Source: an uncultured Pseudomonadota bacterium
Lineage (GTDB): Bacteria > Myxococcota_A > UBA796 > UBA9615
Direction: 5' to 3'
DNA length: 62,068 nt
NCBI GenBank assembly: GCA_937891735.1
Contig: CALAGR010000008.1
Coordinates: forward strand, 1 to 62,068
The notes under the pieces were generated by a model, which saw nothing but the letters and a program-made list of their open reading frames with translations, was not told the origin of the DNA and made no database searches. Numbering within the stretch: position 1 is the first letter of the stretch; each line of letters begins with the position of its first letter. Shown here piece after piece: positions 52,221 through 61,656 of this stretch. The position numbers and the translations under genes were made by a program.

Positions 52221-53069
52221 CTACAGCCCCACCAGCGCCGCGCTGATCGTCCACAGCGTCTGTGCCGCCTCCGCGTCCCGAGCGCGTCGGCTGGGGGTGG
52301 TTCGCCGGGCGCTGGCCCAGTAGGCGCCGGTGCAGGTCCCGGCCTCTTCGCTGGTGGCCACGTGCAGCGACGTGCGCGCGCCCCGGGCCGGCGACAGGGA
52401 CGCCCAGGAGGTCAGCTTCGCGCCCCACTTGAAGATCCCCGTGGTGTCGCCGTCCCCCGCGAAGCTGCTCCGCACCACCCCGGGGTGCACGGCGTGGGCC
52501 ACCACCCCCGTGCCGTCCAGGCGCCGGGCCAGCTCCTTCGTGAACAGCACGTTGGCGAGCTTCGAGTCGCAGTACACGCGCACGTCCCAGTAGCGGCGGC
52601 GGGTGTACATCAGGTCGTCGAAGTCCAGCCCGAGGCTGAGGGCGTGGCCGGCGGACGACAGGGTCACCACCCGGGCCGGGGCGCGGCGGGTCAGCACGTC
52701 CAGGAGCAGGTTGGTGAGCAGGAAGTGCCCCAGGTGGTTTACGCCGAGCTGCGTCTCGAAGCCATCGACGGTCTCGGACCGGCCGGACAGGATCAGCCCG
52801 GCGTTGTTCACGAGCACGTCCAGGCGGTCGTGCTGCGCCAGGAACCGGTCCGCCGCCGCCCGGACCGACGCGAGGGAGGCGAGGTCCAGATCGAGCACCT
52901 CGACGGCCTGGTTGCCGGTGCTCGCCCGGATGTCCTCCGCCGCGGCCTGGGCCTTGGCGCGGTCGCGGCAGGCGAGCACGACGGTGGCGCCGCGCTGGGC
53001 GAGGCCGCGGGCCGTCTCCAGCCCCACGCCCACGTTCGCCCCCGTGACCAGACAGACCATGCCCTGCAT
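52221..53069 (-). CDS. Short-chain dehydrogenase/reductase (retinol dehydrogenase-like)
   Basis: A 282-residue SDR with the cofactor loop TGANVGVG (9-16), ACRDRAKA (Arg suggests NADPH), NNAG, catalytic Ser in TLSSAGH, and YCDSK as the Tyr-Lys pair. The sequence resembles the retinol dehydrogenase/WW-oxidoreductase branch, acting on lipophilic carbonyls. AAGGAG precedes the ATG. It lies 26 bp after the sensor kinase, so it may be the last gene of the 60.7-kb operon, though the gap is larger than others there. Confidence 0.9.
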   Translation of the reverse strand: MQGMVCLVTGANVGVGLETARGLAQRGATVVLACRDRAKAQAAAEDIRASTGNQAVEVLDLDLASLASVRAAADRFLAQHDRLDVLVNNAGLILSGRSETVDGFETQLGVNHLGHFLLTNLLLDVLTRRAPARVVTLSSAGHALSLGLDFDDLMYTRRRYWDVRVYCDSKLANVLFTKELARRLDGTGVVAHAVHPGVVRSSFAGDGDTTGIFKWGAKLTSWASLSPARGARTSLHVATSEEAGTCTGAYWASARRTTPSRRARDAEAAQTLWTISAALVGL

Positions 53070-53094: not shown

Positions 53095-54390
53095 TCAGGA
53101 CCTCAGGGGCATCGTCCAGCAGAACCGCGCGCCGCCCAGATCGCTGCGGCTCACCTGGATCGTGCCGCGATGCACCCGGGCGCAGCCGCTGGCGATGGCG
53201 AGGCCCAGGCCGGTGCCGCCGGTGTCTCGGGAGCGCGCCGCGTCCAGGCGCACGAAGGGGTCGAAGATCGCCTCCCACATCGCCTCGGGCACGCCCGGTC
53301 CGTCGTCGTCCACGCACACCTGCAACCGTCCCGGTCCGCGCACCGCGCTCAGCCGGACCACGCCGTCGGCGTAGCGCACGGCGTTGTTGACGAGGTTTCC
53401 GATGGCCCGCTGGAAGAGCTTGCGGTCCAGGTCCACCACCCCCAGATCCCCCTCGAAGTGAAAGGTCACGACGACGTCTGCGCGCAGGCGCTGCCCGTCC
53501 TCCACCAGGAGCGACAGCAGCGGCTCCACCGAGGTGGGCTCCTTGTTGCCGTCGGCGCCCTCACCCTCCAGCCGGCTGAACTGCAGCAGCTCCCCCACGA
53601 GCCCGTCGAGCTCCTCGATGTCGCCCTCGGCCTCCTGGAGGCGCCGGGTGCGGTCCTCCGCCGTGGGGGCCATCTCGATCAGCTCCAGCGCGAACCGCAG
53701 GCGGGCCAGGGGCGTGCGCAGCTCGTGGGACACGCCGTGCAGCAGCGTCTTGCGCCCCTCCACCATGGTCTGCACGCGCTCCGCCATGGAGTTGAACGAG
53801 CCCGCGAGGCGCCCCGCGGCGTCCTGCCGCTCGATGTCCACCCGGGCCCCCAGCTCCCCGCCCCCCAGGCGCTCGGCGGTGGCCGAGATGGCGGACAGCT
53901 GGCTCTCCAGGGGCCGCACCATCAGGTAGACGGCGCCGCTGAGGCCGAGCAGGAGCAGCAGCGCGAGGGCGATCCCCCGGGGCCCTCGGAACAGCTCCGG
54001 CGGCGGAGGCCCCGGACGGAGCTCGGCGACCATGGGCATGCCGATGATCGGCAGGTAGATGGCCGGACCGGCGTCGCGGATCTGCACCACCGGCTCACCC
54101 GAGGCCAGGGCCCGGCGGGCGCTGTCTCCCAGGGATCCCACGACCGCCTCTTCGGGCAGCAGCACCACGGGGCTGCCCAGACGGGCCTCCAGCTCCGCCA
54201 GGACCGCCTGCCGATCCAGGGCGGGATCCCCGAGCTGGGCGGCGACCTCGTCGGGCCACACCCCCGCCATGCCGAACACCTGGTGATCCAGGTCCGCCTC
54301 GGGCGGAGGCATCAGCAGGGCCACCGCGGCCACGCTCGCGAGCAGCACGAGGACCAGCGCCGCATAGACGCGCAGGAACAAGCCGCGCAT
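53095..54390 (-). CDS. Sensor histidine kinase, RstB-like
   Basis: A 431-residue membrane kinase: N-terminal helix (VYAALVLVLLASVAAVALL), a periplasmic sensor domain of about 110 residues, a second helix (GIALALLLLLGLSGAVYLMV), HAMP, HisKA with His222 in HGVSHELRTPLARLR, and HATPase (NLVNNAVRYA, DDDGPGVP, GGTGLGLAIA). The HELRTPLARLRFALEL phrase is typical of the RstB/CpxA group. The periplasmic domain could sense the state of the envelope or a ligand bound by the TPR proteins encoded just upstream. ATG is 8 bp after the regulator's stop. Confidence 0.93.
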   Translation of the reverse strand: MRGLFLRVYAALVLVLLASVAAVALLMPPPEADLDHQVFGMAGVWPDEVAAQLGDPALDRQAVLAELEARLGSPVVLLPEEAVVGSLGDSARRALASGEPVVQIRDAGPAIYLPIIGMPMVAELRPGPPPPELFRGPRGIALALLLLLGLSGAVYLMVRPLESQLSAISATAERLGGGELGARVDIERQDAAGRLAGSFNSMAERVQTMVEGRKTLLHGVSHELRTPLARLRFALELIEMAPTAEDRTRRLQEAEGDIEELDGLVGELLQFSRLEGEGADGNKEPTSVEPLLSLLVEDGQRLRADVVVTFHFEGDLGVVDLDRKLFQRAIGNLVNNAVRYADGVVRLSAVRGPGRLQVCVDDDGPGVPEAMWEAIFDPFVRLDAARSRDTGGTGLGLAIASGCARVHRGTIQVSRSDLGGARFCWTMPLRS

Positions 54391-54398
54391 GGGGGCGC

Positions 54399-55088
54399 TC
54401 AGGGCTCCGGGACGAACTGGTAGCCGACGCCCCGAACCGTCTTGATCCGGTCGGCGTGCCGGGGATCGGCGGCGAGCTTGCGCCGGAGCTGGCTCACCCG
54501 CACGTCGATGGAGCGGTCGAGCCCGTCGTAGGCGATGCCCCGCAGCTCCTTGACCAGATCCTCCCGGGTGACGGGCTTGCCCGCCTTGCCTGCCAGGACC
54601 CAGAGCAGGTCGAACTCCGAGGACGTCAGATCCACGATCACCTCGTCGATCCGGGCCTCCCGGGCGGCCAGGTCCACCACCAGCGAGCCCACCACGACCC
54701 GACTCCGGTCGTCGGCCGCGGGCTGCTTGCGGCGCATCAGGGCGCGGATCCGGGCGAGCAGCAGGCGAGGGGACGCGGGCTTGGCCACGTAGTCGTCGGC
54801 CCCCATCTCCAGGCCCAGCACCTGGTCCACCTCGTCCCCCATGGCCGTCAGCATGAGGATGGGCCCCGACCACTGGGGGCGCAGGCGCCGGCAGATCGAC
54901 AGCCCGTCCTCCCCTGGCAGCATCAGGTCCAGGATCACGAGGTCCGGATCCACGGCCAGCACGCGGTCCACGGCGCGGTCGCCCCGGCTCTCGTGGATGA
55001 CCTCGTAGCCCGAGTGCCGCAGGTACTCACAGACCAGCGTCGCCAGGCGGGCGTCGTCTTCGACCAGCAGGATCTTGCCTTCGCTCAT
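54399..55088 (-). CDS. OmpR-family response regulator, RstA-like
   Basis: A 229-residue regulator with receiver (DDA, phospho-Asp54 in LDLMLPGEDG, Lys in AKPASP) and a C-terminal winged helix (LTSSEFDLLWVLA, VTREDLVKELRG, RSIDVRVSQLRRKL, VRGVGYQFVP). It partners the downstream sensor kinase. OmpR-family proteins bind direct repeats about 10-11 bp apart, the form of the TTAC boxes at 60796 and 5333, making autoregulation of this operon a reasonable guess. It starts 10 bp after the small TPR gene. Confidence 0.94.
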   Translation of the reverse strand: MSEGKILLVEDDARLATLVCEYLRHSGYEVIHESRGDRAVDRVLAVDPDLVILDLMLPGEDGLSICRRLRPQWSGPILMLTAMGDEVDQVLGLEMGADDYVAKPASPRLLLARIRALMRRKQPAADDRSRVVVGSLVVDLAAREARIDEVIVDLTSSEFDLLWVLAGKAGKPVTREDLVKELRGIAYDGLDRSIDVRVSQLRRKLAADPRHADRIKTVRGVGYQFVPEP

Positions 55089-55098
55089 GCGCCGCAGC

Positions 55099-55716
55099 CT
55101 ACTTCAGGGCCGCCATGCCCTGCCCGGCGGACACGTGGCCGGGCACGGTGAGGAGCACGGTCTTGAACGCCTGCTCGGCCTCGGCCGCCTTGCCCTGCCG
55201 GAGCATCGACCAGCCCAGCCCGGCCCGCATGTCGTTGTCGGACGGGTACTGGATGAGCACGGCGCGGTAGGCGGCCTCGGCCTCGCTGTAGCGCCCCGCG
55301 CTGAACAGCACCCACGCCAGCCGGGACAGGCCCGTGTAGTTGCCGGGGGCCACCGCCAGCAGAGCCTCGCAGGCGGCCTCGGTCTCGGCCCACAGGCGCA
55401 GGGCCATCAACGGCAGGGTCAGGCCTGCCATGGCCTCCGCGGACCGGGGCTGCAAGCTGATCGCGTCCCGGTAGGCGGTGACCGAGTCGGTGTAGCGCCC
55501 GTTGAGGTACAGCAGCCAGCCCCGGCGCAGGTGCAGCAGGTAGTCGGTGGACGCCGCCACCGCGACCTCGTCCATGCGGGCCAGGGCGCCGGCGTAGTCC
55601 CCCGAGGTCTCCAGCGAAAAGGACTGTTGGTACAGCTCGGTGACCGTGCTGCCGCCAGCGAGGGCGGTCTGGGGGACCAAGAGGGCGAACAGGACAATCA
55701 GCAGGGCTTGTTTCAT
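55099..55716 (-). CDS. Secreted TPR protein
   Basis: A 205-residue periplasmic protein with a signal peptide (LLIVLFALLVPQTALA) and about four tetratricopeptide repeats (GDYAGALARMDEVAV, NGRYTDSVTAYRDAI, AGRYSEAEAAYRAVL, QGKAAEAEQAFKTVL). It starts inside the stop of the barrel-protein gene (ATGA). TPRs mediate protein contacts; it may link the outer-membrane barrel to the M23 domain of the inner-membrane protein in this operon. Confidence 0.88.
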   Translation of the reverse strand: MKQALLIVLFALLVPQTALAGGSTVTELYQQSFSLETSGDYAGALARMDEVAVAASTDYLLHLRRGWLLYLNGRYTDSVTAYRDAISLQPRSAEAMAGLTLPLMALRLWAETEAACEALLAVAPGNYTGLSRLAWVLFSAGRYSEAEAAYRAVLIQYPSDNDMRAGLGWSMLRQGKAAEAEQAFKTVLLTVPGHVSAGQGMAALK

Positions 55717-57128
55717 CGTTTGATGCTCCCGGAGGTGTCGACGGTGACGCCGATGGTGAAGACGTGGGTCCAGCTCGTGCCGGACGAGGTGGTGTTGGCG
55801 GCGGCGCCCAGGGCGACGGCTTCGTAGCCGCCCCTCAAGCTGAGCCACGGGGTCAGGCGCCCGGACACGGTCAGCGCGGCGCCCCCGAGCTGGCGCTCGG
55901 CGGTGTTCCAGATGGCGGGCTCGTCGAAGCGGATCGGCGCCCAACCCACGCCCCCGCGGCCGGTCAGGGTGATGTCCAGCCGATCCGTGGGGGTCAGCAG
56001 GACGCTGCCCTGCAGCATGGCGCCGACGTCCGTGGTGGCCTCGGTCTCCGGGAACCAGCGGGTGAACTGCACCGCCGCATCCACGCTGAGGAGCGAGAAC
56101 ACCGGCACGCGGATCCCGGCGCCGATGAGCGCCGCTCGCCCATCGTCGAACGTGCTGATCGCCGCCTCGGCCCGCAGGGTGACGCCCACGGTCGCCCAGG
56201 CGCGGCCCCCCAACACAGTCTCGGTGACGTCGCGGCTGCTCCGATCCAGCAGGCCCACCAGGGCCTCGACGCCGTGCCCGGCGTGGGCCACCCCCAGCCG
56301 TCCCCAGAGCTCGCCCTGGGTGCCTGTCACCTTGGTCGCGTCCACCGTGCTCTGGATGGCGAGGAGCCGCCCCGTCAGCTCCAGGGTCACCAGATCCCCC
56401 AGCGACACCCAGCCCTGGAGCACGCCGCCGACGCCCGCGGAGCGCGTGCTGTTGGAGTACGCGTAGCCGGACAGCCAGAAGGCGCCCCCCGTGCGCCAGC
56501 GGGGCGCCGCGGCCTCCACCCCGGGACCCGCGCAGGCCACGTCCGCGTCCTGGGCGAGCAGGGCCGTGAACGCCTGGGAGGCGCGCACCCGGTCCCCCAT
56601 CCCCAGGATCGTCCAGGCCAGACCGCAGGCCGCCGAGGCGTCGCCGGGGTCCAGGCGCAGCGCGGTCCGGTAGGCGGACGCGGCGCCCAGACGGGCCCAG
56701 GTGCCCGTCTGCCAGCGGGTGCTCTGGCGGCGGGACCAGGCCAGCAGGCGCCACGCGTCGCTGGACTCGGGGGCCAGCACGGTGGCCTCCCGGGCCGCCG
56801 CCCGGGCCTGGGTGACGCGGCCCAGCTGAAGCAGCGGCGTGACCTTGCCCATGGCCGTCTCCCAGGAGGCGCCGGACAGGGCCTCGGCCTGGGTCCAACC
56901 CTGCAAGGACTGCTCCCACGCCCCCCAGGTGGCGGCCACCTCGCCCAGCCGGCGGGCTGCGCCGTAGTCCTGCGGGTACGCCTGCAGCTCGGCCAGGGCC
57001 TGGGTGACGGCGGCGGGCAGGGACGCGGGATCGTCCTGGGCCCCGGCCGGGCGGGCGGGCGCGGAGACGGCGCCCATGAGGACGATGACGATGATCCAGG
57101 CGCTGGTGGACCGCTTGTCGTCGGTCAT
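55713..57128 (-). CDS. TPR plus predicted outer-membrane beta-barrel protein
   Basis: A 471-residue protein with a signal peptide (IIVIVLMGAVSAPARPAGA), TPR-like helices (about 35-190; AYRTALRLDPGDASAACGLAW, then MGDRVRASQAFTALL) and a C-terminal region (about 205-471) of alternating beta strands rich in Gly, Thr, Trp and aromatic girdle residues. The organisation resembles YaiO- and PgaA-type outer-membrane proteins. ATG at 57128 overlaps the stop of the urea-transporter/M23 gene. It probably forms the outer-membrane part of the operon's system. Confidence 0.82.
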   Translation of the reverse strand: MTDDKRSTSAWIIVIVLMGAVSAPARPAGAQDDPASLPAAVTQALAELQAYPQDYGAARRLGEVAATWGAWEQSLQGWTQAEALSGASWETAMGKVTPLLQLGRVTQARAAAREATVLAPESSDAWRLLAWSRRQSTRWQTGTWARLGAASAYRTALRLDPGDASAACGLAWTILGMGDRVRASQAFTALLAQDADVACAGPGVEAAAPRWRTGGAFWLSGYAYSNSTRSAGVGGVLQGWVSLGDLVTLELTGRLLAIQSTVDATKVTGTQGELWGRLGVAHAGHGVEALVGLLDRSSRDVTETVLGGRAWATVGVTLRAEAAISTFDDGRAALIGAGIRVPVFSLLSVDAAVQFTRWFPETEATTDVGAMLQGSVLLTPTDRLDITLTGRGGVGWAPIRFDEPAIWNTAERQLGGAALTVSGRLTPWLSLRGGYEAVALGAAANTTSSGTSWTHVFTIGVTVDTSGSIKR

Positions 57129-59314
57129 GGGCCCGACTCCAGCGGGGTGACGGTGAGCTCGCGGTCCCCGATCCTGACCCGCACGCGCTCCAGGCCCACG
57201 CCCAGCCGCAGCTTCGCTTCGGTCCGCACCGCACGTTGCCACGGGCGCTGGGGTTCGCCCACGCCGGTGATCAGCAAGTGCCCACCGCGCTTCTCGGAGC
57301 GGTACTCCACCGGCTGGTCCGCCGGCGGCAGCACGGCCGCGAGCGCATCACGCACCCACGCCAGGGGGTTGCTGGCGAGGCGTCGCGGGTTGAGGTGGTC
57401 GGTCCAGCGCAGGGCGCCGGGCTCCGTCAGGGGCACCTTGGCCAGGGCCACGTACATGGCGAACAGGGCTCCGTCCCGGGGACCGACGTGGTCGAACGCC
57501 ACGAAGCTCTCGCCGCTCGCCGCGAACCACAGGCGCGCGTCCTGATCGGGGGACCAGAGCGAGCGGGCGCCGAGCAGATCGATGTCGCTGATGATCTCCT
57601 CCTCGTGGGTCCGCCCGTCGCACTCCACCCGCACCCGCACCCGGCCGCCGGGGGGCAGGTCGAGGAGCGAGGCCACCTCGGGCTTGCGCACCAGGTTGTG
57701 CAGGCGGTCGCCCTGCTCGGGCACGCGGCAGCTCTGGAGCAGCGGGCCCTGCTCGGTGCTGACCACGACGTCGTGGAACTCGATGGGGATCGTGGGATCG
57801 CCGACCGTCGGCGTGGCCTGCAGCTGCACGTGAAGGTGCGGCACCGGTGAGCGCCCGGAGCTGCCGACCTTGCCGATGGGCTGGCCCGCGGCGACCACCT
57901 GGCCCTGCACCACCTCCATGGCCCCCGGCGACAGGTGAGCGAGCAGCGAGAAGATCCCCAGCCCGTGCTGGATGACGACGACGTTGCCCCAGTTGGAGGT
58001 CTCGTCGATCGTGCCCACGGGCATGTCGGGGAGGCCATCGACGATCTTGACGACCGTGCCGGCGCCGGGCGCCAGGACCGGCAGGCGGTAGCAGAGCCAG
58101 TCGGTCAGGGCCTGTCCGGTGTTGCGGTGCCGCTCCCCGAGCCGGTCCGCCACCTCGAAGTCCAGGCCGTGGCGCCACGCCCCTTTGTGGGTGTGCTCGC
58201 CGTCGTGGCCCTGGGTCACCACCCAGGTTCCCCGCACGGGCAGGCGCAGCCGGATCGGCAGGCCCGTGCGGAACCGCAGCACGCGGGTGCGGTAGTGGTT
58301 GAGGTTGTCCTCGGGGGAGCCGGCGAGGAAGTCCACCTTGCGGGGCTGGGCTTCCAGCGTGCGCTGGCCCAGGGCGTACAGGATGAGGAGCACGGTGGCG
58401 TTGAAGGGCAGGGCCAGGACGGGCAGGCCCACGGGCTGCAGCAGGTTGATGAGGCCCACGCTGACGAGGCCGCAGGCGAGGGACCCGGTGGCCGCCAGGG
58501 CCATCGATGCGGGACCGGGTACGTAGTAGATCCCGCCCAGCGCCACCGCGGTCATGATGAAGTTGAAGCCGATGTACTGGTGCACGAAGTCGGCGGGGAA
58601 CGAGAAGAGGTACTGGTCGGCGAACACGGCCACCGCGAACCCCACCAGGGCGTGCACCACCGCGATCCGCGACCACAGCAGCAGGGCCAGCAGCACCAGC
58701 GCTCCGGCGGTCCAGTGGGGCTGGAAGAAGATGGCCCCCAGGCTGCGCAGGAAGGTGTCGAGCAGCGCCGGGCCGGGCAGGGCGGCCATCGCCAGGGCCG
58801 GGGCCTTGGGGACCATCGCCATGCCGCGGATGTAGGGCACCGCGAGCAGGGCCAGCCAGCCCACGATCACGAAGGGCAGCGACAGGACGGGCAGGCGGAA
58901 GTGGTAGCCCATCGCCCCGGACAGGGCCACGTGCACCAGGACCACGGCGAGGGCGAGCACCGCGGACAGGCCCCAGAAGGCGGGGGAGCGGTCGAGCAGG
59001 GCGCCCACCAGCAGGAACACCAGCAGGGCGTTGTAGCCGAGCACGCCGGTGCGCACCGACTCCTTGTCCAGCCCCAGGGCGAGGGCCAGACCCGAGGCCA
59101 GCACGACGCCGAGCAGGCCGATGGCGCCCACCTCGGGCACGACGAAGGTGGCGGCCATCACGAGGGCTCCCACCGCCGGGCGGCGGGCGAACAGGACCTG
59201 GGAGTAGCTGGCCAGGACGGTCTCGACGCCCCGTCGCAGCCGGCTGGGGGGCCGACTGGACGGGGTGGTGTCGAACACCGCGGCAGCCTCGGACGCGGGG
59301 ACGAAGCCGATCAT
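57125..59314 (-). CDS. Urea-transporter-like membrane domain fused to M23/LytM peptidase domain
   Basis: A 729-residue fusion. Residues 30-315 have about ten hydrophobic helices in two halves and match the urea transporter (UT) family (ASYSQVLFARRPAVGALVMA, ALGLDKESVRTGVLGYNALL). Residues about 345-500 are an M23/LytM domain: HKGAWRHGLDF with likely zinc ligands His376 and Asp385, NWGNVVVIQHG, LLAHLSPG, and PHLHVQ with His493 and His495. About 230 further residues are beta-rich. All M23 ligands appear intact, so endopeptidase activity on peptidoglycan is plausible. It starts 5 bp after the decarboxylase stop and overlaps the barrel gene (ATGA). It may let a channel sense or remodel the wall. 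Confidence 0.9.
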   Translation of the reverse strand: MIGFVPASEAAAVFDTTPSSRPPSRLRRGVETVLASYSQVLFARRPAVGALVMAATFVVPEVGAIGLLGVVLASGLALALGLDKESVRTGVLGYNALLVFLLVGALLDRSPAFWGLSAVLALAVVLVHVALSGAMGYHFRLPVLSLPFVIVGWLALLAVPYIRGMAMVPKAPALAMAALPGPALLDTFLRSLGAIFFQPHWTAGALVLLALLLWSRIAVVHALVGFAVAVFADQYLFSFPADFVHQYIGFNFIMTAVALGGIYYVPGPASMALAATGSLACGLVSVGLINLLQPVGLPVLALPFNATVLLILYALGQRTLEAQPRKVDFLAGSPEDNLNHYRTRVLRFRTGLPIRLRLPVRGTWVVTQGHDGEHTHKGAWRHGLDFEVADRLGERHRNTGQALTDWLCYRLPVLAPGAGTVVKIVDGLPDMPVGTIDETSNWGNVVVIQHGLGIFSLLAHLSPGAMEVVQGQVVAAGQPIGKVGSSGRSPVPHLHVQLQATPTVGDPTIPIEFHDVVVSTEQGPLLQSCRVPEQGDRLHNLVRKPEVASLLDLPPGGRVRVRVECDGRTHEEEIISDIDLLGARSLWSPDQDARLWFAASGESFVAFDHVGPRDGALFAMYVALAKVPLTEPGALRWTDHLNPRRLASNPLAWVRDALAAVLPPADQPVEYRSEKRGGHLLITGVGEPQRPWQRAVRTEAKLRLGVGLERVRVRIGDRELTVTPLESGP

Positions 59315-59319
59315 GGGAG

Positions 59320-60690
59320 CTACTCGAGCCACGCAGGGACGGATTCTCCCATCACCAGGTCCTCGAGGGTCTCGGTGCGCCGGATCTCGGCCACCTCTCC
59401 GGCGGGGCTGATGAGGACGACGGCGGGGCGGAGCTGGATGAACTGCATGGACTGCGTGACGTTGTAGGCGCCGACGGGGCTGACGAGCACCCGGCTCCCG
59501 ACCTCCAGCGGGGGCAGCATCATGTTCTCGCAGACCACGTCGATGTTCATGCACAGCGGGCCGTACAGGACGGTCGGCTCGGGCACGCCCCGGGGCTCGG
59601 TGCAGGGCGTGATGTCGTGCCGGTACCAGAAGGACGTGAAGAGCACGTTGACCCCGGCGTCCAGGACCGTCGCGCGCCGTCCGTCGGGCAGGCGCTTGTT
59701 GGCGAACACGGTGCTGATCATCGTGCCCGCGTCATCCACCAGGGCGCGGCCGGTCTCCAGGATCAGCAGCGGCGTCTCGTCGTGGGGCAGGTCCAGGGCG
59801 GACAGCCCGTCGGTGATCGCCTCGGCGTACTGGTCGAAGCTGGGGCTGACCTGCTCGCCGGGCAGGTACTGGCTGTGCAGCCGGGCCTTGCTGGCGAAGC
59901 CGCCGCCGAGATCGATGTACTCCACCGTGATGCCCAGCTCCTTGCGCAGCCGGTTGGCGAACCCGGCGACCTTGCCCGCGGCGATCTTGTAGGAGCCGGA
60001 GTCCAGCACGAAGGTGCCGACGTGGCTGTGCAGGCCCGCCAGCTGCAGGCGGCCGCCCCCGACCAGGCGGCGCACGGCGTCCCAGGCCTGGCCCGTCTCC
60101 AGGGCGAAGCCGAAGCGGCCCCAGACGGGCACCCCGGCGCCGACGGACATGTTCAGGCGGATCCCCACCTTCGGCTTCATGTCGAGCTCGGCGGCCACCT
60201 GCTCGCACAGGGCGAGCTCGTCGAAGTGGTCGATGTTGACGATGGAGCCGCCGGCGAAGGCCTCGCGCAGCTCGTCGGCGGTCTTGCGGGGGCCGTTGAA
60301 GACGATCTGCGCGGCGGGGATCCCGTTGCGACGGGCCTTGCGGAACTCCATGCCCGAGACCACCTCGGCCCACGCGCCCTCGGCGTGGAAGACCTTGCAG
60401 ACGGCATCGAGGTAGCAGGTCTTGTACGACCAGGCGAGCTGCACCCTCGGCCAGCGGCGGGACAGGGCGTCGTGCAGCTGCCGGTAGCGATCCTCCATGG
60501 TGCGCTGGCTGTAGACAAACAAGGGGGAGCCGTGGGCTTCGACCAGCTCCTCGACGGGCACACCATCAATGGAGTCCTTCGGTTGGTACGCGGCGCTGGC
60601 GCTCATCTTGTTCATGAAGCCCGCCCGGTGGCGGCTGATGCTGGGGCGCTCGTAGCGCTGCTTGAGCTTGGTGGTCGGGTTCTGGGACAC
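59320..60690 (-). CDS. Fold-type-III PLP decarboxylase (DAPDC/ODC-like)
   Basis: A 456-residue enzyme of the alanine-racemase-like fold. Lys90 in WSYKTC is the PLP lysine. LHSHVGTFV, YIDLGGGF, LETGRALVDDAG and Cys380 in GPLCMNID match the diaminopimelate/ornithine/arginine decarboxylase group. Which amino acid it uses cannot be told. The first 30 residues are an extra basic tail. It starts at GTG with GGGAG upstream, and is first in the operon. If it made agmatine, a later step could yield urea, which would fit the urea-transporter domain, but no agmatinase is in the window. Confidence 0.9.
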   Translation of the reverse strand: MSQNPTTKLKQRYERPSISRHRAGFMNKMSASAAYQPKDSIDGVPVEELVEAHGSPLFVYSQRTMEDRYRQLHDALSRRWPRVQLAWSYKTCYLDAVCKVFHAEGAWAEVVSGMEFRKARRNGIPAAQIVFNGPRKTADELREAFAGGSIVNIDHFDELALCEQVAAELDMKPKVGIRLNMSVGAGVPVWGRFGFALETGQAWDAVRRLVGGGRLQLAGLHSHVGTFVLDSGSYKIAAGKVAGFANRLRKELGITVEYIDLGGGFASKARLHSQYLPGEQVSPSFDQYAEAITDGLSALDLPHDETPLLILETGRALVDDAGTMISTVFANKRLPDGRRATVLDAGVNVLFTSFWYRHDITPCTEPRGVPEPTVLYGPLCMNIDVVCENMMLPPLEVGSRVLVSPVGAYNVTQSMQFIQLRPAVVLISPAGEVAEIRRTETLEDLVMGESVPAWLE

Positions 60691-60985: not shown

Positions 60986-61173
60986 ACGGGCCCACCCCTC
61001 CCGGCGAGCGCCGGAGTGGCACGACCCCTGCACAACCCCATGGGGCGTTCCCTGAGTGAGGTCAGGGGGGCCCACACGCGGGCAGATGCCCTCGGATGGC
61101 GTGCAATCTCGCTCGGTTTCCCGCGGAGCGGAGCCAGCGCCCGGGAAGACCGGGTCCACAGGAGGAGAACGAC

Positions 61174-61656
61174 ATGGGGACAGTAAAGAGAATCCTGGCC
61201 CGAAAGGCCCAGAGGGCGGTCCTGACCACGACGCCACACACCCTGGTCTACGACGCCATCGCGGTGATCGCCGAGCATGGCGTGGGGGCCCTGGTGGTGA
61301 CCGAAGAGGACGAGGTGGTGGGCATCGTGACCGAGCGCGACTACCTGCGAGAGGTCGTCCTGAAGGACCGCTCCAGTCGAGCCACCCCCGTGGAGACGAT
61401 CATGTCCAGGCCCGTCGTCACCGTGGATCCCAACGAGACGATCGACCGCTGCATGGAGCTGATGACCAGCCACCGGTTCCGCCACCTCCCGGTCCTGGAG
61501 GACGGCGAGCTGGTGGGCGTGATCTCCATCGGCGACTGCGTCAAGCAGCAGGTGCGGGAGCACACGGCGGAGATCCACTTCCTGCACGACTACATCAACG
61601 GCGGTCCGACCGTGGTCCGGGAGAGGGCGGCCGAGCGGGCCAGCCAGCGGGGCTGA
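61174..61656 (+). CDS. CBS-domain pair protein
   Basis: A 160-residue cytoplasmic protein made of two CBS domains: VYDAIAVIAEHGVGALVVTE...VGIVTERDY and IDRCMELMTSHRFRHLPVLED...VGVISIGD. A strong AGGAGG lies 8 bp before the ATG. CBS pairs bind adenine nucleotides and tell a partner about energy state; here no partner domain is attached. A short Arg-rich C-terminus is present. The gene stands alone between two 158-bp repeats. Confidence 0.92.
   Translation: MGTVKRILARKAQRAVLTTTPHTLVYDAIAVIAEHGVGALVVTEEDEVVGIVTERDYLREVVLKDRSSRATPVETIMSRPVVTVDPNETIDRCMELMTSHRFRHLPVLEDGELVGVISIGDCVKQQVREHTAEIHFLHDYINGGPTVVRERAAERASQRG

Follow-up and report, generated by a model that had tools for sequence, protein, structure and literature searches.

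A fusion of a urea-channel-family domain with an M23 peptidase domain, and its conserved gene unit in Myxococcota-like bacteria, Bacteroidota and other phyla

Channels of the urea transporter (UT) family, such as dvUT of Desulfovibrio and the SLC14 proteins, have ten membrane helices and keep both ends in the cytoplasm. In the butirosin side-chain pathway (BtrJ, BtrK, and BtrI, with BtrJ an ATP-grasp ligase), an amino acid is loaded on a small carrier and decarboxylated there. Pearlin clusters (the 3-thiaglutamate tgl cluster and tmo) comprise a carrier peptide, a ligase, a protein with a recognition element (RRE) of ribosomally synthesized and posttranslationally modified peptides (RiPPs), a membrane metalloprotease, and a transporter, and the product is released within the cell (PMC9303977, PMC10885120). 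Here, we report a UT-M23 fusion protein and the gene unit around it in an uncultured Pseudomonadota bacterium (GTDB lineage Bacteria; Myxococcota_A; UBA796; UBA9615). The window, meaning the whole stretch of DNA analyzed, is 62,068 nucleotides long and is an entire contig (CALAGR010000008.1, here C8) of a 7.9-Mb, 542-contig assembly (GCA_937891735.1). Each part of the system comes from a known family, and each pathway considered has at least one defining feature that was looked for here and is missing. A literature search, with most subscription journals outside its coverage, found no description of a UT-M23 protein or of the gene set, in agreement with a preliminary description of the window that knew of no characterized system of such composition.

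Results

A single open frame holds a UT domain (PF03253, E=4e-57; 197 bits against a cut-off of 25) and an M23 domain (PF01551, E=2e-16) in Pfam searches, and its AlphaFold model has a predicted local distance difference test (pLDDT) score of 92 and a predicted template modeling (pTM) score of 0.89. Among 74 genomes of related bacteria, the window's own included, 10 carry the full-length fusion, as do 23 of 248 genomes spread over the Bacteroidota (about 9%), so it is no assembly artefact; the fusion is real and old. Instead of the break between the two parts in other assemblies that the preliminary description had named as the sign of an artefact, there is full-length recurrence in several phyla. 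In one Bacteroidota genome (L112:3900-4100), the reading frame changes between UT and M23 at a poly-T run; this sole split case, a frameshift or sequencing error, was uninformative as a natural test of topology. A scan of species genomes (Bacteria and Archaea) gave 561 stretches encoding relatives, of which 80 loci were retained, from Myxococcota-like bacteria, Bacteroidota, Chlorobiota/Ignavibacteria, and one Planctomycetota metagenome-assembled genome. Because M23 motifs seeded the scan and similarity to the fusion set its ranking, the presence of UT was partly selected, whereas the neighbors were unselected.

The conserved unit consists of a PqqD-like protein, an ATP-grasp ligase, a pyridoxal phosphate (PLP)-dependent decarboxylase, UT-M23, an optional tetratricopeptide repeat (TPR) porin, and a secreted TPR protein. 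The decarboxylase is upstream of UT-M23 in 70 of the 71 loci with enough room; upstream of the decarboxylase are an ATP-grasp enzyme (PRK12767/PF15632 type) in 68 of the 80 loci, two being fragments, and, in 65, a PqqD-family protein some 90 residues long (PF05402, 43.9 bits; cut-off, 23.4). The order PqqD, ATP-grasp, decarboxylase, UT-M23 holds in every sufficiently long contig with the sole exception of L087, and at all other loci without PqqD or ATP-grasp, the contig ends too early. The secreted TPR gene is found downstream in nearly all loci, after a barrel-sized gap in 45 and directly after UT-M23 in 19. In the window's genome, the PqqD and ATP-grasp genes lie on another contig (C355, 14736-15005 and 15026-16141; the stretch is L098:6737-8142), outside the view of the preliminary description. 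In the sister species (G001), both genes immediately precede the decarboxylase, and the split is therefore recent or an assembly fault. An ATP-grasp orthologue occurs in 8 of the 10 fusion-bearing genomes versus 0 of the 64 fusion-less ones; of the two genomes that lack it, one has a partial copy where its contig stops (L018), and the other's contig begins inside the decarboxylase. Across 39 loci, the decarboxylase, ATP-grasp, UT-M23, and TPR proteins have correlated distance matrices (r=0.84-0.91, with shared ancestry of the hosts contributing), as would be expected of co-inherited genes. With the PqqD-like and ATP-grasp genes in the unit, the likely function shifts to small-molecule biosynthesis and export.

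The features of the locus, including a short-chain dehydrogenase/reductase (SDR) gene, are as follows.

59320..60690, minus strand: PLP-dependent decarboxylase (alanine-racemase fold, FigC/LysA-like), core; Pfam Orn_Arg_deC, nearest solved structure 7kh2, GPLCMNID in 63/63
57125..59314, minus strand: UT-M23 fusion protein, core; two Pfam domains in one frame, AlphaFold model, kept across phyla
58373..59224, minus strand: UT (urea-channel family) domain with altered pore Thr/Glu positions; Pfam, structure match, alignment
57755..58240, minus strand: M23 zinc-peptidase domain (ligands H376, D385, and H495; also H460 and H493), predicted cytoplasmic; Pfam, structure match, conservation, loop charges
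57128..57725, minus strand: C-terminal beta-rich region of the fusion, no family; AlphaFold secondary structure, no Pfam match
55713..57128, minus strand: TPR plus 14-strand outer-membrane barrel, optional component; AlphaFold model, Foldseek matches BcsC/OmpG, absent in 19 loci
55099..55716, minus strand: secreted (signal-peptide) TPR protein, core; TPR families, present in nearly all loci
54399..55088, minus strand: RstA/OmpR-like response regulator, lineage-specific accessory; family match, found after the TPR gene in L016-L018 alone
53095..54390, minus strand: RstB-like sensor kinase, lineage-specific accessory; family match, same three loci
52221..53069, minus strand: SDR oxidoreductase, probably outside the system; Pfam, homologue in 0/80 loci

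The seven close-set genes, all on the minus strand, lie where the preliminary description had placed them, and its tight run of overlaps and small gaps was confirmed. In order from decarboxylase to SDR, there are a 5-bp gap (decarboxylase/UT-M23), two ATGA overlaps (UT-M23/TPR-barrel and TPR-barrel/secreted TPR), and gaps of 10 bp (secreted TPR/RstA-like), 8 bp (RstA-like/RstB-like), and 25 bp (RstB-like/SDR). The decarboxylase starts with GTG, and a matching N terminus in G001 backs this start. A promoter and terminator scan gave no signal above chance.

The nearest solved structure to the decarboxylase is 7kh2, the N-citrylornithine decarboxylase FigC (E=7e-58), followed by diaminopimelate decarboxylases, BtrK, and others. 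In common with FigC/FslC of the Francisella rhizoferrin pathway are the Cys-Met pair at the catalytic Cys, an NGPxK stretch, and GAYN; the pair, C361-M362, aligns with FigC Cys354-Met355 and is part of the invariant GPLCMNID (63 of 63 decarboxylases). In FigC, the Met after the catalytic Cys stands in for the acid that grips the free side-chain amine in ornithine, arginine, and diaminopimelate enzymes, and the substrates of FigC, SbnH, AcsE, MccE, and BtrK are acylated, peptidyl, or carrier-bound amino acids, BtrK decarboxylating carrier-bound glutamate (PMC7857480). Because of the FigC-type Cys-Met signature, the substrate is probably, by analogy, an acylated or carrier-bound amino acid with its far end already joined, which fits an ATP-grasp ligase as partner. 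The FslC NCBIfam model (218 bits; cut-off, 500) and the LysA model (208.6 bits; cut-off, 297.9) were not reached, and a housekeeping LysA was rejected on that score; only weak paralogues of the decarboxylase occur elsewhere in its own genome. The partners here are ATP-grasp and PqqD-like proteins, whereas those of FigC are a non-ribosomal peptide synthetase (NRPS)-independent siderophore (NIS) synthetase and major facilitator superfamily (MFS) transporters. BtrJ/BtrK/BtrI share the carrier logic and enzyme fold with the window system, which differs from them in having a PqqD-like protein and no recognized acyl carrier protein. An N-terminal tail (~YERPxIxRHxxGxMNKFG) ahead of the usual decarboxylase fold is conserved (window 60615-60690, L019, L024, L034, L038, L052) and may serve the PqqD-like protein as a docking site.

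The first half of the fusion has the fold of dvUT (3k3g) and the SLC14 urea channels, with a template modeling (TM) score of 0.86 to 3k3g; it differs from them in the added M23 domain, in filter residues, and in carriers without a convincing urease. In an alignment to dvUT, the filter threonines of LPxxTxPF are mostly replaced (position 145 is Ser in 65 of 74 sequences, and 301 usually has Ser, Ala, or Val), while Ala occupies the position of dvUT Glu187 (194 in the fusion) in 62 of 74 sequences, Glu and Gln being outside the five commonest residues there. The only filter residue kept is Gln39 (dvUT position 24), retained in 65 of 74. No urease alpha was found in the window's own genome, and 26 carrier genomes gave no convincing urease match, three 24-bit partial hits resembling other amidohydrolases; with the filter residues altered as well, urea is an unlikely substrate for UT-M23, judging from sequence. 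Urea uptake for a urease was rejected on the same genomes.

In a structure search of the AlphaFold model, the middle part of the fusion matched M23 domains of the DipM, ShyA, and EnvC type, and a viral structure library returned generic M23 lysins only. The fold and catalytic histidines are those of DipM, ShyA, Csd, and EnvC, but the window domain is channel-fused and predicted cytoplasmic, and its first ligand His is nine residues ahead of the Asp, the usual spacing being four. The zinc ligands picked out in the preliminary description (His376, Asp385, and His493/495) are invariant in 74 homologues, as is H460. Lys/Arg density is 0.129 in presumed inner loops versus 0.047 in outer loops, with the same trend in 74/74 sequences; an Arg/Lys-rich stretch follows the last UT helix, and no membrane span precedes M23. 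Since homology and loop charge place both UT ends in the cytoplasm, the M23 domain is predicted to be cytoplasmic as well, which speaks against the wall-cutting or wall-binding arm proposed earlier. M23-only relatives (L012-L014; ~340 amino acids, ~40% identical in the M23 part) occur in genomes of the same class without the fusion.

The AlphaFold model of the 55713..57128 product (pLDDT 85) comprises 14 strands in addition to a TPR part, and its best solved match in Foldseek is BcsC, with OmpG a close second, which bears out the outer-membrane barrel predicted earlier. TPR and barrel are common to the BcsC/PgaA TPR-porins; the window barrel differs in having 14 strands, like OmpG, in being optional, and in that no polysaccharide synthase was noticed nearby. 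Barrels at the same position in Bacteroidota are weakly related to it (hhalign probability, 25%), and homology to them was not accepted. As an essential part of an envelope unit, the barrel did not hold up, being missing in 19 loci versus 45 with a barrel-sized gap.

Among the neighbors listed in the preliminary description, the decarboxylase, the secreted TPR protein, and often the barrel are conserved, whereas the RstA/RstB pair, whose homologues lie 3' of the TPR gene solely in three close relatives (L016-L018), lends no support to a sensor of its own for the system as a whole, and the SDR has no homologue in the 80 loci. The pair matches its general class only, scoring 245 bits against the RstA family cut-off of 330 and 244 bits against the RstB one of 478. 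Outside the core, neighbors vary by locus and each family turns up in a few loci at most; 118 flanking proteins belong to scattered families only (AraC-type regulators in 6), and the wider neighborhood was rejected as a source of functional hints. A divergent two-CBS-domain protein (window 61096-61656) adjoins the operon and has a single weak homologue (L081) among related loci. In four Bacteroidota loci (L041, L047, L052, and L083), sigma-factor-like, small membrane, and Spy-like periplasmic genes lie 5' of the PqqD gene, which suggests envelope-stress control of the operon there. A membrane acyltransferase (HGSNAT/Acyl_transf_3-like) is beside or within the operon at L084:8958-10001, L034, L046, L051, and L093.

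Discussion

The reading that we favor, tentatively, is synthesis of a small amine or amide from an amino acid and its export, with a membrane-tethered peptidase freeing the product and a channel letting it out. The PqqD-like protein would present a peptide or carrier, to a carboxylate of which the ATP-grasp enzyme would join an amino acid, and the decarboxylase, as its FigC-type active-site signature suggests, would strip the carboxyl of the amino acid while the far end is blocked. The channel-tethered M23 zinc domain, at its predicted place on the cytoplasmic face, may then release the product, which would exit through a UT-type pore with a filter unlike that of urea channels; the secreted TPR protein, joined in many lineages by the TPR-porin, may carry it onward or dock it at the outer membrane. 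Pearlin pathways offer a parallel in their RRE protein, ligase, modifying enzyme, product-freeing membrane metalloprotease, and transporter. They differ in the PEARL (peptide aminoacyl-tRNA ligase) and carrier peptide, neither of which is among the recurrent neighbors here, and in a protease of M50 type, the window system having an M23 protease fused to a channel.

Several observations weigh against this proposal. No conserved small open reading frame (ORF) that might encode a short precursor or carrier lies in the 1.5 kb preceding PqqD or following TPR, and a locus-encoded precursor peptide was rejected on that ground; the enzyme genes of the window's own genome are split over two contigs; and the UT pore is narrow, perhaps too narrow for a product that exceeds urea in size. 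The placement of M23 is a prediction from homology and charge, the M23-only relatives L012-L014 carry signal peptides or a lipoprotein signal and are thus exported, and a secreted TPR protein as core partner would suit a periplasmic M23. It is possible, if rather doubtful, that there is a new class of small-molecule pathway in at least four phyla in which a single protein, UT-M23, serves as both product-freeing hydrolase and exit channel and is supplied by a PqqD-presented ATP-grasp ligase and a decarboxylase. Such a class would build on a carrier yet do without PEARL, NRPS, and NIS enzymes, and it would put the SLC14 fold to a new purpose other than urea.

The main rival is a RiPP pathway with a distant precursor, followed by a wall machine. 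In the former, the PqqD-like protein would bind the leader of a precursor encoded elsewhere, ATP-grasp and decarboxylase would modify it, and M23 would remove the leader to give a peptide product. PF05402, the PqqD family, holds many RiPP recognition elements (PMC12710340), graspetides are made by ATP-grasp ligases (PMC8939145), and a peptidase is in the gene set; yet this account is unlikely, given that the ATP-grasp protein matches PRK12767/Ter-type models and not a graspetide model, that there is no peptide transporter and a peptide is unlikely to leave by a UT channel, and that no conserved small ORF lies near the loci, although the precursor could lie elsewhere.

The wall machine, put forward in the preliminary description, is an envelope-spanning assembly in which an inner-membrane channel with a periplasmic M23 arm cuts or binds peptidoglycan and a TPR protein links it to the outer-membrane barrel. 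It draws on the wall-peptidase fold and catalytic residues of M23, on the exported relatives L012-L014, and on a conserved secreted TPR partner with a frequent barrel. Loop charges favoring a cytoplasmic M23 in 74/74 sequences, the absence of a hydrophobic span between UT and M23, the 19 loci without a barrel, and three presumably cytosolic partners that are left without a role make it quite improbable.

A metallophore-type pathway would yield a citryl- or amide-polyamine chelator like rhizoferrin, with porin and TPR proteins as the export or uptake route. Although the closest characterized decarboxylase makes a citrate siderophore, the ligase is ATP-grasp and not NIS, and NIS synthetase, MFS exporter, and TonB receptor are absent among recurrent neighbors, so that such a product has little to recommend it. 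Urea or nitrogen handling, with UT moving urea and the decarboxylase serving arginine, agmatine, or polyamine metabolism, is scarcely credible: the UT fold and the ornithine/arginine decarboxylase family speak for it, but the pore threonines and Glu187 position are changed, the Cys-Met signature is unlike polyamine decarboxylases, and a convincing urease is lacking in the window's genome and the 26 carriers.

Whatever its product, a unit of five to six genes is kept across Myxococcota-like bacteria, Bacteroidota, Chlorobiota/Ignavibacteria, and Planctomycetota, which points to a widespread and seemingly undescribed function, and named carrier strains, e.g., Mariniphaga sediminis, Maribellus luteus, and Minicystis rosea, make the system testable. 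If the amine or amide export reading holds, the unit would be a new route to an amino-acid-derived metabolite, would give the cell-wall peptidase fold a cytoplasmic job, and would assign proteins of the urea-channel family a role unrelated to urea.

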